This document shows, in pieces, positions 29,195 through 35,406 of a DNA stretch of 39,839 bases. The notes beneath the pieces were generated by a model. That model saw nothing but the letters and a program-made list of their open reading frames with translations. It did no database searches and was not told where the DNA came from. The translations under genes were made by a program, and so were the position numbers. How positions within the stretch are numbered: the first letter of the stretch is position 1; each line of letters starts with the position of its first letter. This DNA comes from an uncultured Bacteroidales bacterium (GTDB lineage: Bacteria; Bacteroidota; Bacteroidia; Bacteroidales; P3), in the NCBI GenBank assembly GCA_900319865.1, contig ONQD01000026.1:1-39839 (forward strand), written 5' to 3'.

Positions 29195-32083
29195 CTACTC
29201 AACCTCTCGTCCATCCCCATCTCTCGAATCTTCTCTGCAATCTTCCATTTCACCCTTGTGTCCAATCACAAATCGGTCAAATGCTGCCAAACTACCCGGT
29301 AGCACAAACAGAATCAAAACTATCACTGCCAATCCTCCCACCGACAAACATCCCACTATCGAAGATATCGTATGGTCTTCCACCAGAAACGACATTACCC
29401 CTGGAGCCAGCACTATTATCAGCCCCGAAGTCAATATGGTGCGTATCGAGCCTCGGTATGCAGTCTCCAAAGCTTCGCTCACTCCCCGCGTCCTCCGTCC
29501 TTCTCTGTAATAGTTGGCAAACAGAATAGCATAGTCTATCGTCGCCCCCATCAATATGCTCTGCACTATCAGATATGCCAGATACAACATTGTCCTGCCT
29601 CCCAATCCACTGATAAACACATTCACATACACACCCGACATCACCGTAATCACCAGCAACACCGGCAGCAGCACCGAACGGAATGTCAATGCAACAATCA
29701 GGAATATCGCCAACACCGTCAGTAACGTCAGCAGCAACAACTCCCTACTAAAACCCTCTCTCATTTCGTCAAACATAACCGACTCGCCTATCAAGGCATA
29801 TTCCCCTTCCAGTTCTTCTTCGCAACATTGCCTCAACCGCTTCAAGAAATCGTGAGTCTCGTCACCTTCATCCGCATAGCTTGTCACAATAGCAGCCATC
29901 GACCATTCCTTCCCTTTCATTTTCCCAATCCCTTCATCCATCATCCTACTCACATCTGTCAATTTCCCCCTCATCTCCTCATTTACCCATTCTGCATATT
30001 CTTCATTCTCCAACAACTCGCCGGTCATAAAGTCCACCATCTCTTCCAACGAACATGTAAGCACTCTCTTCTCTTCTGTCACAACAGCCGTTTCAATCAC
30101 CCTCTCCACTCTTGGCGTTTCTTTGCTTTCCACCACAACCGTCTTCATTGTGTCCATTGCCACACTAAAGCTGTTATCCACCATTGCCACTGCTCCACTG
30201 TCACTCTCCACCGATTCCATAGCCATTTCGGTCACCACCTCCACCATCTTCGGCTGTGCCAAGTATGCACTGTCCATCCGCTGTTTCAATCTCTCCAGCT
30301 GCTGCCGCTGATCCACCGATATAAACGATGCATACATTCTGTTGGTCAATATCTTGTCCGTCACATAATGCACAAATTCTATCGGGGTCATCTCCCCCTT
30401 TGCCCTTCCGGCCATCCTGTACAGAGTCGCTGCTTGCTTTCCGTCAAATCCCAGATATGCCGACATTTTCTGTGCCGTCATTCTCATCCTCACCGTGTCG
30501 TACAAACTCGGCACATACACTCTCTCCACCTTTTTCACCATCTTTCTTTCCTCCGTGCCTGCCACTTTGGCACTATCCTCTACGGCCTCAACTTCCACCT
30601 CCTCTTGTTCCACTTCCAACACTTCTGCCACTTCGCTATTCTCTTTGGACATCTCTGGCAATTCCGGCAATTCAACTACAGGACCATCCTGCACAACATT
30701 TTCAGTGTTCATCAGTCCAAACACCATTTCCAGCATTTCTGGCGTCAACATCGAATCCACCATCCTTGCCACATCCTCTCCCATCATTGCCGTCATTCCT
30801 TTTAACCCATCACACATCTCCTCGGCATTCATCTGTCGCTGCATCAGGCTGGGATACGACACCACCGTATCCACCCTGCCGTCCAACCCCAGCGCGTCTG
30901 TCAATCTCCCAATCTTGCTTTCATCCTCATTCCTGTACAGCAGCACCACCGTGTTTTTCCGCGGAAACACCTCGCTTATCTCTGTCGGCCAATTGGTCGA
31001 AAACGAAATCTCTGTCTTGTTATGAAGCCAGAATGCCACTCCAAATACTGCCACCCCAACCACTGCCAATGCATATCTATTCCTGCTTTCAAATCTTGCC
31101 AGCCTGTCGGTATTGGGCACCACCACCCGCTTCCTGCTCTTCTCTATGGCCTTGTCAAACAGCAACACCAGTGACGGCAACACACCGTACAAACACACCA
31201 CACTGCACACCACACCCTTGGCCAGCACTATTCCCAAGTCCATCCCTATCCGGAATTTCATAAAGCACAGCATCAACAGCCCTGCCATAGTGGTCAGTGC
31301 ACTGCTCAGCACCGATGGCGACGCAGCCTGCAGAGCCTTCTTCATGGCCGCTTTCTTGTCCACCGTTCCTTCTCTCCTCATTCGCTCCACCTCCTGTCGG
31401 TAGCGGTTCATCAGTATTATGGAATAATCCATCGACAGCACCAACTGCAATATTGCCACTATCGCATTTGTCGTCATCGACACACTCTCCAGCAACACAT
31501 TGCTACCCACATTCATCACCACCGCCACACCTATTGTGGCCAAAAACAGCAACGGCTCCATCCACGACTCACACATCAAAAACAAGATAACAAACACCAG
31601 CAGCCCGGCAATCAAAAAAACCGATACATCTGGCAAATTCCCGTCAATACTGGTCTCCACCACCACCTCTTTTTCCCCGTTCCTTATCTCTCTTGCCACG
31701 CCCTTCGGATCCCCGTTGGTCACTATCGTCATATCATACAGCACATATTCCCCCTTCTCCTCCACCGATGTCACCATCTCCACATCTTCCATTCCCGCCA
31801 GCATCCTCCTCACACTGTCCTTCTCCTCTCTGGTCAACCCTTTATACATCGCCCGCACACTCAGCATATTTGCCGCATCCTGCCCCAGTTCATCCTTCAT
31901 GCGGTCCAAACCCTTCTTCATCTCCGAATCCCGTGGCAGATACTTTGTCATATCTGTGTTCACATTCACCCTCGGCACCATCACACCGCACACCACAGCC
32001 AACACCAACATCAGCCCCAACAGCCAATGTCTCCTTTCAACCAGAAAGCCACAGAATATGTTGTTCTTCTTCAATTCAGTCAC
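29195..32083 (-). CDS. MMPL/RND family membrane transporter
   Basis: The 962-aa protein has the two-half RND layout: one helix near residue 20, a periplasmic loop, a six-helix bundle with LSMDYSIILMNRYRQEVE, a second helix and loop, and a second bundle with GATIDYAILFANYYREGR. The DY pairs are the usual proton-relay Asp positions of MMPL transporters. The second extracytoplasmic loop (about 400-730) is enlarged and very rich in Val, Glu and Met (for example EVAEVLEVEQEEVEVEAVED). Relatives export lipids or hydrophobic compounds. The cargo is unknown. The coding strand is unusually G-rich with many GTG and GAG codons. Confidence 0.9.
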   Translation of the reverse strand: MTELKKNNIFCGFLVERRHWLLGLMLVLAVVCGVMVPRVNVNTDMTKYLPRDSEMKKGLDRMKDELGQDAANMLSVRAMYKGLTREEKDSVRRMLAGMEDVEMVTSVEEKGEYVLYDMTIVTNGDPKGVAREIRNGEKEVVVETSIDGNLPDVSVFLIAGLLVFVILFLMCESWMEPLLFLATIGVAVVMNVGSNVLLESVSMTTNAIVAILQLVLSMDYSIILMNRYRQEVERMRREGTVDKKAAMKKALQAASPSVLSSALTTMAGLLMLCFMKFRIGMDLGIVLAKGVVCSVVCLYGVLPSLVLLFDKAIEKSRKRVVVPNTDRLARFESRNRYALAVVGVAVFGVAFWLHNKTEISFSTNWPTEISEVFPRKNTVVLLYRNEDESKIGRLTDALGLDGRVDTVVSYPSLMQRQMNAEEMCDGLKGMTAMMGEDVARMVDSMLTPEMLEMVFGLMNTENVVQDGPVVELPELPEMSKENSEVAEVLEVEQEEVEVEAVEDSAKVAGTEERKMVKKVERVYVPSLYDTVRMRMTAQKMSAYLGFDGKQAATLYRMAGRAKGEMTPIEFVHYVTDKILTNRMYASFISVDQRQQLERLKQRMDSAYLAQPKMVEVVTEMAMESVESDSGAVAMVDNSFSVAMDTMKTVVVESKETPRVERVIETAVVTEEKRVLTCSLEEMVDFMTGELLENEEYAEWVNEEMRGKLTDVSRMMDEGIGKMKGKEWSMAAIVTSYADEGDETHDFLKRLRQCCEEELEGEYALIGESVMFDEMREGFSRELLLLTLLTVLAIFLIVALTFRSVLLPVLLVITVMSGVYVNVFISGLGGRTMLYLAYLIVQSILMGATIDYAILFANYYREGRRTRGVSEALETAYRGSIRTILTSGLIIVLAPGVMSFLVEDHTISSIVGCLSVGGLAVIVLILFVLPGSLAAFDRFVIGHKGEMEDCREDSRDGDGREVE

Positions 32084-32115
32084 TTACAATACCACTAACA
32101 ATGTTAATTAGTTTG

Positions 32116-32123
32116 CAAAGATA
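32116..32123 (-). promoter_or_regulatory. -7 element of the MMPL gene
   Basis: TATCTTTG followed by GC on the minus strand, 32 bp before the ATG at 32083. No TTG lies at the standard distance. Confidence 0.5.
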
Positions 32124-32598
32124 AACAAATTCTTTCACATATCACTCCTGTTCTCTCATCCCCTGTTCCCTTTTCACCCAAACTCTACTCAATAGCCCCC
32201 TCCCATCCAACGCCTGCACTCTCCTGCATCCACTTTTAACTGCCCTGGAAGTATAGTTACAAATATAGATATAGGCATCAGCCACCTAAACAAATACGCC
32301 CTATATGGACATAAACATATCGTTCTTACATCATTTTAACTGTTTTCCCAACAGCTTCGATGAGACTGAGATTTATCCCATTTCGGTCGATATGGTTTGT
32401 AGCCTGCCCTCTTAGGCAACGACCATTGGACAGTCTCCGCTAGTCCCCTCTCGAGGAGTACGGCGAAGACGGGGGTATGTATCCCCCAAAAATACAGAAA
32501 GTCTTTATATGTGGAAGAGATATTCGTGCTGGTTCCGTCAGCGGAATACATACCTCGCCACTGCAGTGGCACCCCTTTCTAAAGGGGAGAATGGTATG
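32124..32598. other. Intergenic stretch with palindromic, repeat-like segments
   Basis: The right part has a palindrome GCCACTGCAGTGGC (32557-32570) followed by CCCCTTTCTAAAGGGG (32572-32587), just past the stop of the four-helix gene, so it may act as its terminator. Between 32400 and 32500 short stretches such as CCCCTCTCGAGGAG recall degenerate dispersed repeats of this phylum. I see no gene. The left part is featureless. Confidence 0.5.
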
Positions 32599-33252
32599 TC
32601 AAGGTTTATTGTTGGCCAGTTTTTTCCGCAGGGCGGCGATTTCTGCTTTGAGGAGGCGGTTTTCCTCTTCAAGGGCCTGCATCCGACTGTCTTGTTGTTG
32701 GCGGTAAGAGGTGCGGGCGGCATGCATCCGTTCCTTTACGCCCCCCTCAGACACAAACCTACTCTCCAAGTGATGCAGATAGGAGTCGGCCATCTTGTCG
32801 GTAATATGGCAAAGGGTGATGGCCATATTGCAGAACTCCTCGGCCGATAGGGTCTCCGCCAAATGGCAGTAGTCGTCGCTGGTGTTATGCTCCCGGCAGA
32901 AGGCCAACATCTTCTCAAAACGCGGGTGCTTTTTGTCCCAAAGCGGCAGGGAATGTTTTTTCAGATAGTCCTCATAGTCCTCTCTCAGCTCCTGAAGGCT
33001 GGCGCGTCCCACGTTCACCAGTTTCACTTCTGTCTCGCTGCTGGTCATGGCTGCCTCGCTGCCCTCCACAATATTCTGCTTGCCGCTACGTGCAGCCTGG
33101 GTCATCTGGTCGACGGTGCGGTCGCCATAAGGCGGAAGGAAACGCTTACAGAACCTGTCGGTCAGAACAACCAGAACCTCGCTTTTCTGGTAAAGGTGGA
33201 GGCTCCTGTAGTCCGGCACTCGGCGGAAGATGCTGTTTTGCTGGGTGGGCAT
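32599..33252 (-). CDS. Four-helix-bundle suffix domain protein
   Basis: The 217-aa protein begins with an S23/four-helix-bundle-like region (LHLYQKSEVLVVLTDRFCKR, then DQMTQAARSGKQNIVEGSEA, RASLQELREDYEDYL, residues about 15-95), continues with a helical middle containing NMAITLCHITDKMADSYLHH, and ends in a coiled coil (MQALEEENRLLKAEIAALRK). This order matches the Bacteroidales four helix bundle suffix family. The function is unknown; related bundles bind nucleic acid or partner proteins, as Avd does in diversity-generating retroelements. A 54-bp CTAG repeat lies 31 bp upstream. Confidence 0.85.
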   Translation of the reverse strand: MPTQQNSIFRRVPDYRSLHLYQKSEVLVVLTDRFCKRFLPPYGDRTVDQMTQAARSGKQNIVEGSEAAMTSSETEVKLVNVGRASLQELREDYEDYLKKHSLPLWDKKHPRFEKMLAFCREHNTSDDYCHLAETLSAEEFCNMAITLCHITDKMADSYLHHLESRFVSEGGVKERMHAARTSYRQQQDSRMQALEEENRLLKAEIAALRKKLANNKP

Positions 33253-33276
33253 GGGGTTGATTTTTTTAGTTTAAAA

Positions 33277-33339
33277 AGTATTTCTAGTATGTCTAGTATT
33301 ACTAGTCATACTAGTTTTACTAGCCATACTAGAAATACT
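33277..33339. repeat. Six-unit 9-bp CTAG tandem repeat within a 15-bp inverted repeat
   Basis: CTAG begins at exactly 9-bp steps: 33284, 33293, 33302, 33311, 33320 and 33329, with variable middles (TATGT, TATTA, TCATA, TTTTA, CCATA, AAATA). The block is also bounded by a perfect 15-bp inverted repeat, AGTATTTCTAGTATG (33277-33291) and its complement (33325-33339). It lies between the start of the four-helix gene and the end of the M13 gene. Confidence 0.92.
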
Positions 33340-33354
33340 ATTATTCATTGCTGT

Positions 33355-35406
33355 TTACCACAACTGGGCGCGCAGCTCGGGTGCCAGATACATGGCGCAG
33401 CCGGGCTGTATACCGAAGGCTTCGAGGAACTCGGTGACGTGCGGCAGTGTAGCATTCACACGGTTCTCAGCCAAGCTGTGAACGTCGGCAGCGGTGAGCT
33501 GCAGTTTCATTTCCTCACGGATGTTGCTGGCCCAAACACCGGCATAGGCCAGGAAGAAGCGCTGGGCAGGAGTGAAGCCGTCCATCTTCTTCTCGTTCAC
33601 CTGACGTTTCTTCAGAGCATTCTGCAAAGCCTGATAGCTGATATGCAGACCGCCGTTGTCGGCTATGTTCTCACCCAGGGTGAGCTTGCCGTTGGCATAG
33701 ACCTCGGGGTCGTCGCTAATCTTGACTTTATTGAACCAGTCAACCAGCACCTGTGCGTTCTTCTGGAAACGGGCGGTATCCTCGGCCTCCCACCAGTCGT
33801 TCAGGTTGCCGTTCTTGTCGTAGTGGCGGCCCTGGTCGTCGAAACCGTGGGTCATCTCATGACCAATCACCACTCCAATGGCACCATAGTTGAAAGCATC
33901 GTCGGCATTCATGTCGAAGAAGGGTTTCTGCAGGATGCCTGCGGGGAAACAAATCTCGTTGGTAGTGGGGTTGTAGTAGGCGTTGACCGTCTGCGGAGTC
34001 ATGCCCCATTCGGTCTTGTCCACAGGTTTGTCAATCTTCGACACCATATAGGCGATGTCGAACTGGTTGCTGCGGATAACGTTAGCGAAGTAGCTGTCGT
34101 TCTTGATTTCCAAACCGCTATAGTCGCGCCACTTGTCGGGATAGCCCACCTTCACCATAATGGTGGAGAGTTTTTCAATAGCGCGCTGTTTGGTGCCCTC
34201 GCTCATCCATTGTGCATCGTGGATGCGCATGGCGAAAGCCTCTTTCAGGTTGTTCACCATCTCAACCATGCGGTGTTTGGCGGCAGCGGGGAAGTAACGC
34301 TCCACATAGAGCTGACCCAGAGCCTCGCCCATGGCACCGTCAACAGTGTTGGTTACACGTTTCCAGCGGGGACGAATCTGCTCGGCACCACTGAGAGTGC
34401 GTCCGTAGAACTCGAAGTTGGCATTCACGAAATTGCTGCTCAAGTAGCTCGCAGCCGAGTTGATAACATTCCAAGCATAGTATGCCTTGACGGCTTCCAG
34501 ACTCTTGGTCTCGTTCAGAGCCTTGCCCACCTCTTGGAAATACTCGGGCTGGCACATGTTGAAACTGGTGAGCTCGGGCAGACCGATTTCGGCGAAATAG
34601 GCCTTATAGTCGATGCCGGGGGCCTTGATATTGGCCGTATCCAAGGTCATCTTGTTGTTGGTCTTGAAGGGGTCGCGGTTGGTCTCATTGTCATACTGGG
34701 CTTTGGCCAAACGGGTTTCAAAATCCATCACCATCTTGGCCAACTGGGCAGGAGTCTTGCCGCTCATCTTGTCGTAGCCGGCATTGGCAAACTGGGTCTC
34801 CATCAACTTGACGTAAGCCTTGCGCAACTCGGGCTCGCGGCCTTTGCTCTCAAGATAGTAGTCGCGCTCGCCCATCCCGATACCGGTTTGATAGAACCAT
34901 GCAATGCACATATTGGCATCGGAAGCGTCGGCCTCGTTGAACATGGCAAAGAACGGATTGATGCCAATGCCGTGCAGACGGCGCATCTCGGCCTGCGACT
35001 CGGCGGTGGTCTTCAATGCGGCAATCTCTTCCAGATAGGGCTTGATAGGTTCAACACCCTGCTGCTCGATAGTGGCGGTGTCCATACCCACCTTATAGAG
35101 GGTGGCAATCTTGTCGCCATAGCTGCCGGCGGCGTTCTGCGTGTTGACTAGCGAGTCGATGAGAGTACGCAGCTGCTCCTGGTTAGTCTCGGCCAACACG
35201 TCGAAAGCGCCATAGCGGCTGTGTTCGGCATCCAGCGGATGGGCCTTAAGCCAGCCGCCGCATGCATAGTGATAGAAATCCTCGGCAGGGTCGAATGTAG
35301 TGTCGAGGTTGTCCAGATTGACACCCGAGCTCAGCTCGGAACCTTTGTTGCACGATGTCGCTGCAAAGAGTGATAGTGTCATGATTGCTAATAAGGTTTT
35401 TTTCAT
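33355..35406 (-). CDS. pepO: M13 family metalloendopeptidase (PepO/neprilysin-like) lipoprotein
   Basis: The 683-aa protein has a lipoprotein signal (LFAATSC, Cys19) and the M13 zinc site: VIGHEMTHGFDDQGRHYD near residues 520-537 (HExxH), GENIADNGGL near 580-589 (ENxAD with the third ligand Glu), and a C-terminal RVNATLPHVTEF (the NxxHxxxF-type ending) with RFFLAYAGVWASN. Upstream NAYYNPTTNEICFPAGILQ is the substrate-binding NAYY motif. It cleaves peptides on the periplasmic or surface side. The length is standard for the family. A clear promoter is upstream. Confidence 0.96.
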   Translation of the reverse strand: MKKTLLAIMTLSLFAATSCNKGSELSSGVNLDNLDTTFDPAEDFYHYACGGWLKAHPLDAEHSRYGAFDVLAETNQEQLRTLIDSLVNTQNAAGSYGDKIATLYKVGMDTATIEQQGVEPIKPYLEEIAALKTTAESQAEMRRLHGIGINPFFAMFNEADASDANMCIAWFYQTGIGMGERDYYLESKGREPELRKAYVKLMETQFANAGYDKMSGKTPAQLAKMVMDFETRLAKAQYDNETNRDPFKTNNKMTLDTANIKAPGIDYKAYFAEIGLPELTSFNMCQPEYFQEVGKALNETKSLEAVKAYYAWNVINSAASYLSSNFVNANFEFYGRTLSGAEQIRPRWKRVTNTVDGAMGEALGQLYVERYFPAAAKHRMVEMVNNLKEAFAMRIHDAQWMSEGTKQRAIEKLSTIMVKVGYPDKWRDYSGLEIKNDSYFANVIRSNQFDIAYMVSKIDKPVDKTEWGMTPQTVNAYYNPTTNEICFPAGILQKPFFDMNADDAFNYGAIGVVIGHEMTHGFDDQGRHYDKNGNLNDWWEAEDTARFQKNAQVLVDWFNKVKISDDPEVYANGKLTLGENIADNGGLHISYQALQNALKKRQVNEKKMDGFTPAQRFFLAYAGVWASNIREEMKLQLTAADVHSLAENRVNATLPHVTEFLEAFGIQPGCAMYLAPELRAQLW

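Follow-up and report, generated by a model that had tools for sequence, protein, structure and literature searches.

Gene and array at the locus

The stretch of DNA analysed here (the window) comprises 39,839 nt of contig ONQD01000026.1 (assembly GCA_900319865.1) from an uncultured Bacteroidales bacterium. Between an M13-family peptidase gene and a gene of the four-helix-bundle-suffix family, it carries a short array of 9-bp units built on the motif CTAG (Table 1); this array, the adjacent suffix gene and their relatives in other genomes are the subject of this analysis. An earlier note, made from the letters of this DNA, had described six evenly spaced CTAG motifs and the usual scarcity of the tetranucleotide in bacterial DNA; both points are borne out here. 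The motifs begin at 33284, 33293, 33302, 33311, 33320 and 33329, in exact 9-bp steps, and the window holds 23 CTAG where 89 would be expected, six of the 23 lying within the 63-bp array. At steps of 5–14 bp, CTAG runs in the window have a length of one throughout, except for the run of six at step 9; in 300 sequences simulated with a first-order Markov model at matching composition, no run was longer than two. The 15-bp inverted ends described in the note are indeed perfect, and the array does lie upstream of the suffix gene, 25 bp from its start. Weaker 9-bp units, read by eye, apparently extend the array beyond both ends.

The protein matches TIGR02436 at 27.3 bits (cut-off 24) and TIGR04258 '4helix_suffix' at 64.4 bits (cut-off 40). 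Against Pfam PF05635 (S23p) it scores 26.1 bits, under the cut-off of 33.8; two plain four-helix-bundle relatives, L330 and L335, score far over it. The structure is predicted with a pLDDT of 90.7, and the best fold matches of the model are two bundles, 2gsc and one labelled as S23 ribosomal protein family (2rld), with no match in this fold search at an E value of 0.001 or better. A four-helix protein of Xanthomonas is a homopentamer (PMC4990558), and is probably the protein of 2gsc.

Table 1. Features of the gene and array region, in window positions
Feature	Position	Strand	Remarks
Array of ACTAGTNNN-type 9-bp units	33277..33339	.	Holds the six exact CTAG; ends are inverted; interpreted as 5' terminal repeat of a putative unit
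Left 15-bp inverted arm	33277..33291	+	Exact reverse complement of 33325-33339
Right 15-bp inverted arm	33325..33339	-	Pairs with left arm
Four-helix-bundle-suffix gene	32599..33252	-	217 aa; long C-terminal helix (model residues 172-214)
TIGR02436 four-helix-bundle match	32980..33192	-	Residues 21-91; profile match
TIGR04258 suffix domain	32698..32844	-	Residues 137-185; profile match
M13-family peptidase gene	33355..35406	-	Conserved neighbour defining occupied and empty sites in congeners; outside the unit

Contig C46 of the same genome carries an 83% copy of a stretch of about 150 bp that lies past the 3' end of the suffix gene (32439-32588), and a similar motif is visible near the array of locus L050. 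This is a second dispersed repeat family.

Association of gene and array in related genomes

Of 99 related genomes, counting that of the window, 51 contain TIGR04258; the 107 places at which it occurs were all examined. A short-period array, of any period, lies at an edge of 90 of these 107 genes (upstream in 51, downstream in 66), as against 5 of 90 stretches of the same size taken 500 bp further out. The link between array and gene family suggested in the earlier note holds, and is much wider than proposed. When lags of 4–20 were scanned, the strongest self-match fell at 9 or 18 in 84 of the 107 loci. At the gene edges, lag 9 passes in 37% of the 106 windows on the upstream side and in 41% of the 105 on the downstream side, compared with 2–5% within the gene and 0–1% at 300–750 bp. 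Arrays of 10 bp period, with CCTAGGNNNN, and of 8 bp, with ATCGAANN, also occur. Core bases are conserved and spacers are variable. In some genes, such as those of L075 and L080, the array falls inside the reading frame, and the protein gains a tail of tripeptide repeats. Among the 17 loci that fail the edge test, five (L114, L115, L118, L150 and L158) show an array at the guessed gene start, where the guess may be at fault. Two suffix genes (L177 and L217) have an internal stop and are either natural pseudogenes or products of sequencing error.

Repeat words follow the gene lineage

Read by eye, each gene clade has its own array word: ACTAGTNNN at the window, and GTCNGACNN, TCCGGANNN, GATAGANNN and CCTAGGNNNN elsewhere. 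CTAG was accordingly rejected as a special or key word, since other clades of the suffix gene use other words and periods. Among 98 array loci, word similarity follows protein identity (Mantel r 0.68, reached by none of 2000 permutations), and 6-mer sharing rises from 0.04 at 20–50% protein identity to 0.50 above 80%. Upstream and downstream arrays share 6-mers at a mean of 0.46 within one gene and 0.07 between genes, and sharing exceeds 0.1 in 37 of the 40 genes with both arrays.

Enrichment of the clade's own word was assessed in 59 congeners for four gene clades chosen by eye (Fisher p 0.004 to 0.0001). GTCNGAC was present in 6/6 genomes with the clade gene and 19/53 without it, CCTAGG in 3/3 and 6/56, TCCGGA in 4/5 and 6/54, and TCTATC in 8/8 and 14/51. 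Two genes were excluded: L100 of G014, with a CCTAAG-like word and no CCTAGG triples, and L171 of G031, a fragment, with no TCTATC. Reversed controls gave no matches for three of the words; that of TCTATC matched in G028 (4), G007 (1) and G068 (1).

One clade of suffix proteins carries a terminal zinc ribbon (L168 and L173; by eye also L164, L169 and L170), and its arrays are of CGTTAT/ATCGAA words at 8 to 9 bp. The ribbon, PF01396 of the topoisomerase DNA-binding type, is above the cut-off in L168 and below it in L173; it points to nucleic acid binding.

Dispersed arrays and variable loops

The pattern CTAGN5CTAGN5CTAG has 13 forward matches at five places in the genome of the window, and its reversed control none. 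One of the five places, on contig C42, belongs to the GTCNGAC word, pairs of which occur at 69 positions, as against three for the reversed control. The genome has three suffix genes, among them that of L047, flanked by GTCNGAC arrays on both sides, and that of L048, which terminates in an array of a third word. Other arrays have no suffix gene within the stretches read. Several lie in frame within coding sequence: in a 374-aa protein (L049), in a 929-aa protein with two words (L053) and in a long open frame (L052). A further in-frame array, in L054, falls in an apparent signal peptide, where the antisense side of a CTAG array (approximately 2328-2370) reads as the hydrophobic stretch.

For each of the two loops of L053, 29 orthologous loci were compared. 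At the first, the 24 aligned sequences, read by eye, carry a TCCGAC word in six, a TCCGAA/TCAGAN word in five, a heptamer in five and no array in eight; at the second, with 28 aligned, there are at least four words (CTAG, TCTATC, AATCAGAAT and heptamers). At the L049 site, 28 of 29 orthologous loci could be aligned, and six have the word of the window's genome. A single loop thus carries words that are unrelated from one species to another. Arrays of heptamers (AATTGAG and related) are also dispersed in the window's genus, some within coding loops (L270, L271, L272, L275, L279, L286, L292, L294 and L305).

Occupied and empty sites

A query with the window region matched 112 of 119 congeners, and 12 loci were fetched, one of which (L265) was not readable. 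Gene and array follow the M13 gene in six loci (G000, G040, G057, G037, G006 and G018), and neither is present at the site in four (G119, G021, G134 and G027). In G135 (L260) the suffix gene is broken and the upstream array has decayed to a short AT-rich inverted repeat. Array length across the six occupied loci ranges from 50 to 85 bp (54–63 bp in G057, G040 and G000, 76–85 bp in G006 and G037, 50 bp in G018), and unit number therefore varies between orthologues, as the earlier note had anticipated. The left arms of G000 and G040 differ by a change that has its counterpart in the right arm.

Plain four-helix-bundle genes and other phyla

At L298 a plain four-helix-bundle gene (TIGR02436, 109.9 bits) adjoins a heptamer array. 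With its protein as query, 26 plasmid records were obtained (11 from Nostoc), of which 22 were fetched. Lag 7 passes upstream of 18 and downstream of 19 of the 22 genes, as against 1/22 at each distant control, and the other lags from 5 to 12 pass once. The association of gene and array thus extends to plain TIGR02436 genes, with 7-bp arrays, in cyanobacteria and other phyla. In 16 scorable pairs the arms are inverted in 12, direct in three and neither in one. Equal arm length, considered as a general trait of these elements, was rejected (rho 0.06).

In L331, L333 and L334 the element splits a DNA methyltransferase gene, of which L350-L352 have an unbroken copy. The left edge of the element coincides with a heptamer-like sequence that the intact gene has as well, and L331 is shorter than the other two by one heptamer on each arm. 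L335 and L336 have the element between cas2 and cas1, two genes that are directly adjacent in L353 and L354. All 22 plasmid loci have their plain genes among protein genes as annotated. Plain genes occur in operon-like runs of annotated defence genes in L335, L336, L338, L345, L346 and L347, with cas2/cas1, type I restriction S/R subunits, DUF1156/Swt1, helicase/N-6 methylase and csx2/cas1 as neighbours.

A scan of named genomes confirmed at least 570 relatives in many phyla, of which 80 were kept. Lag 9 passes at 26% of 80 and 19% of 78 edges, and at 0% far away; inverted repeats scoring 12 or more are present at 34/157 edges, as against 1/147 distant stretches. Hairpins in the flanks of these 80 loci more often have the purine arm first (29 vs 7 at threshold 11, 20 vs 5 at 13 and 17 vs 4 at 15). 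This bias is suggestive and is kept apart from the main argument. A plasmid search with two suffix queries gave one record, from Prevotella nigrescens, in which the gene is followed, as read by eye, by a CTAG array. In viral contigs, 23 stretches matched a pattern and none was confirmed as a suffix-family relative; a plain four-helix gene is present on one contig (L327), and both its edges are heptamer-like, with lag-7 matches of 0.75 and 0.83.

A putative mobile unit

Gene and array are associated, their words follow the gene lineage, arrays are dispersed in the genome, and sites are occupied in some congeners and empty in others. The window array probably forms the 5' terminal repeat of a small unit, mobile or selfish, with a protein that would recognise its own repeats and probably also spread them. 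Such a unit would consist of the four-helix-bundle gene and flanking arrays of its own short word, which the protein would recognise as DNA or RNA. With host enzymes, the protein could then bring about the copying, lengthening and exchange of arrays and gene, and leave them at new sites, including in-frame sites within protein loops. Direct binding, active spreading and the use of host replication or recombination are proposed here, and the period (7 bp for plain and mostly 9 bp for suffix proteins) may be a measure of the protein's binding geometry.

Several observations weigh against this proposal. Profile searches of NCBIfam and Pfam found no catalytic domain, and the window gene is without a clear downstream array. 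The Mantel result is also expected under plain co-inheritance and does not distinguish co-evolution from it. Enriched words are present in many genomes without a detected clade gene (the second figure of each pair given above), and the enrichment counts include the gene's own flanks, from which all the CCTAGG matches of G028 and all the TCTATC matches of G018 derive. In the plain elements, arm lengths are uncorrelated overall, with 7/16 pairs agreeing within 1 bp. No target-site duplication was seen, and in the methyltransferase gene, the single insertion resolved to the base, the element replaces approximately 325 bp of host sequence.

The earlier note read the array as a regulatory protein array or a slippage-prone switch. 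The link to the gene family stands, but either function would fit poorly with arrays that lie inside other coding genes and with different words in one loop across species. A purely regulatory reading is less likely than a mobile unit. If the array were a cis-regulatory operator, bound by the protein at its own start for autoregulation and with the dispersed arrays as a regulon, then its position 25 bp from the start codon, its palindromic cores at a steady spacing that suits a row of bound protein, and words that track the gene lineage would all be expected. However, arrays are found downstream of the gene at least as often as upstream (66 and 51 of 107), within the coding sequence of other proteins and, with different words, in a single loop across species, and an operator seems unlikely. 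Chance slippage beside tolerant genes would explain the short period and the variable unit number, and is one explanation cited for heptamers (PMC4692102), but it is very improbable as an account of arrays that keep their core bases while the spacers vary, are limited to the gene edges and have words tracking the gene lineage.

It is also doubtful, to about the same degree as an operator, that the array acts as an RNA element, like the intervening sequences of 23S rRNA: the array would form a transcript stem to which the protein binds and at which RNase III cuts, and the insertion would hence be tolerated. The rRNA intervening-sequence protein appears to belong to the same family (PF05635), the arrays are partly inverted, and in Coxiella RNase III cleaves the inverted ends of the intervening sequence, whose ORF is preceded by heptameric repeats of variable number (PMC4990558). 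Self-complementarity beyond the palindromic units, however, holds for only part of the arrays, 37/123 being more self-complementary than all 40 column shuffles. RNA stems were not supported by G.U wobble: G.T mismatches, which would pair as G.U in the sense transcript, number 109 and A.C mismatches 263, so that an excess is not seen, although base composition may mask one. A search of window positions 31900-34000 also gave no known RNA family at gathering score.

Beyond the window, the proposal of a mobile unit may be widened, more tentatively, to the whole four-helix-bundle superfamily, plain and suffix. With a probability somewhat short of even, this superfamily would be the partner that the short tandem repeats of many bacterial phyla have lacked, with each lineage writing or spreading its own 7- to 10-bp word. 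Cyanobacterial heptamers and Bacteroidales 9-bp arrays would then form one selfish class, without a known catalytic domain, that rewrites arrays genome-wide and reshapes protein loops.

Comparison with known systems

CRISPR arrays have repeats of about 20-50 bp and spacers of similar length, unlike the window array with its 9-bp period. Avd, of the diversity-generating retroelements, is a four-helix-bundle partner protein of a sequence-rewriting system; it is not among the 50 fold matches listed for the window protein, and no search for adjacent reverse transcriptases was made.

Short tandem repeats of the heptamer and related kinds abound in some bacteria. Those of cyanobacteria, Beggiatoaceae and Xanthomonas (short tandemly repeated repetitive sequences, STRR, and similar) resemble the present arrays in their 7-bp period, mixed words, intergenic and partly intragenic position and similar hosts (PMC4679880, PMC4692102). 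Tandem 7-bp units flank the plain four-helix genes, whereas the window array has 9-bp units. The published heptamers may well be the same repeats. The accessible text of these papers names no four-helix partner gene, states that no mechanism is evident (PMC4679880) and that a functional role is still to be found (PMC4692102). According to PMC4990558, members of the four-helix (S23p) family lack a known function. In the present loci, the repeats lie on both sides of four-helix-bundle genes. A four-helix family lying between repeats whose words follow its lineage is a candidate partner gene, and the question can be tested with one gene and one array. Such a partner would give this widespread family a role, and would be one origin of the repeats inserted in frame into proteins.

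Intervening sequences of 23S rRNA with an S23p ORF share with the present units inverted ends and, near the Coxiella ORF, variable heptamers (PMC4990558), and apparently also the PF05635 family, for which the window gene scores under the Pfam cut-off. They differ in place: the units described here lie in protein-coding operons or intergenic DNA, the window gene being beside the M13 peptidase gene and the 22 plasmid genes among protein genes, with rRNA in no locus read; the present words are also lineage-specific and dispersed. Apart from the Coxiella intervening sequence, the accessible parts of the open-access literature, to which this comparison was confined, gave no link between these genes and such arrays.

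RAYT is an HUH (Y1) transposase encoded beside repetitive extragenic palindromic (REP) repeats. REP/REPIN systems with RAYT are similar to the present one in that a gene is tied to short palindromic dispersed repeats, with repeat classes per gene lineage; here, too, each gene lineage has its own class of repeat, with copies scattered through the genome. In contrast to REP/RAYT, the present units have four-helix-bundle and suffix domains and 7- to 10-bp arrays that also occur inside coding sequence. NCBIfam and Pfam searches found no HUH (Y1) transposase in the window gene, and no search for other transposases nearby was made.

The nearest known systems are thus REP/RAYT, which works alike with another protein, and the rRNA intervening sequences, which apparently have the same protein family in another place. 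As the open-access literature gave nothing else that matches and the units differ in defining traits from REP/RAYT, rRNA intervening sequences and CRISPR arrays, they may be set apart as a new kind; if every S23p element is counted as one kind, they would be a large and novel subset of it.
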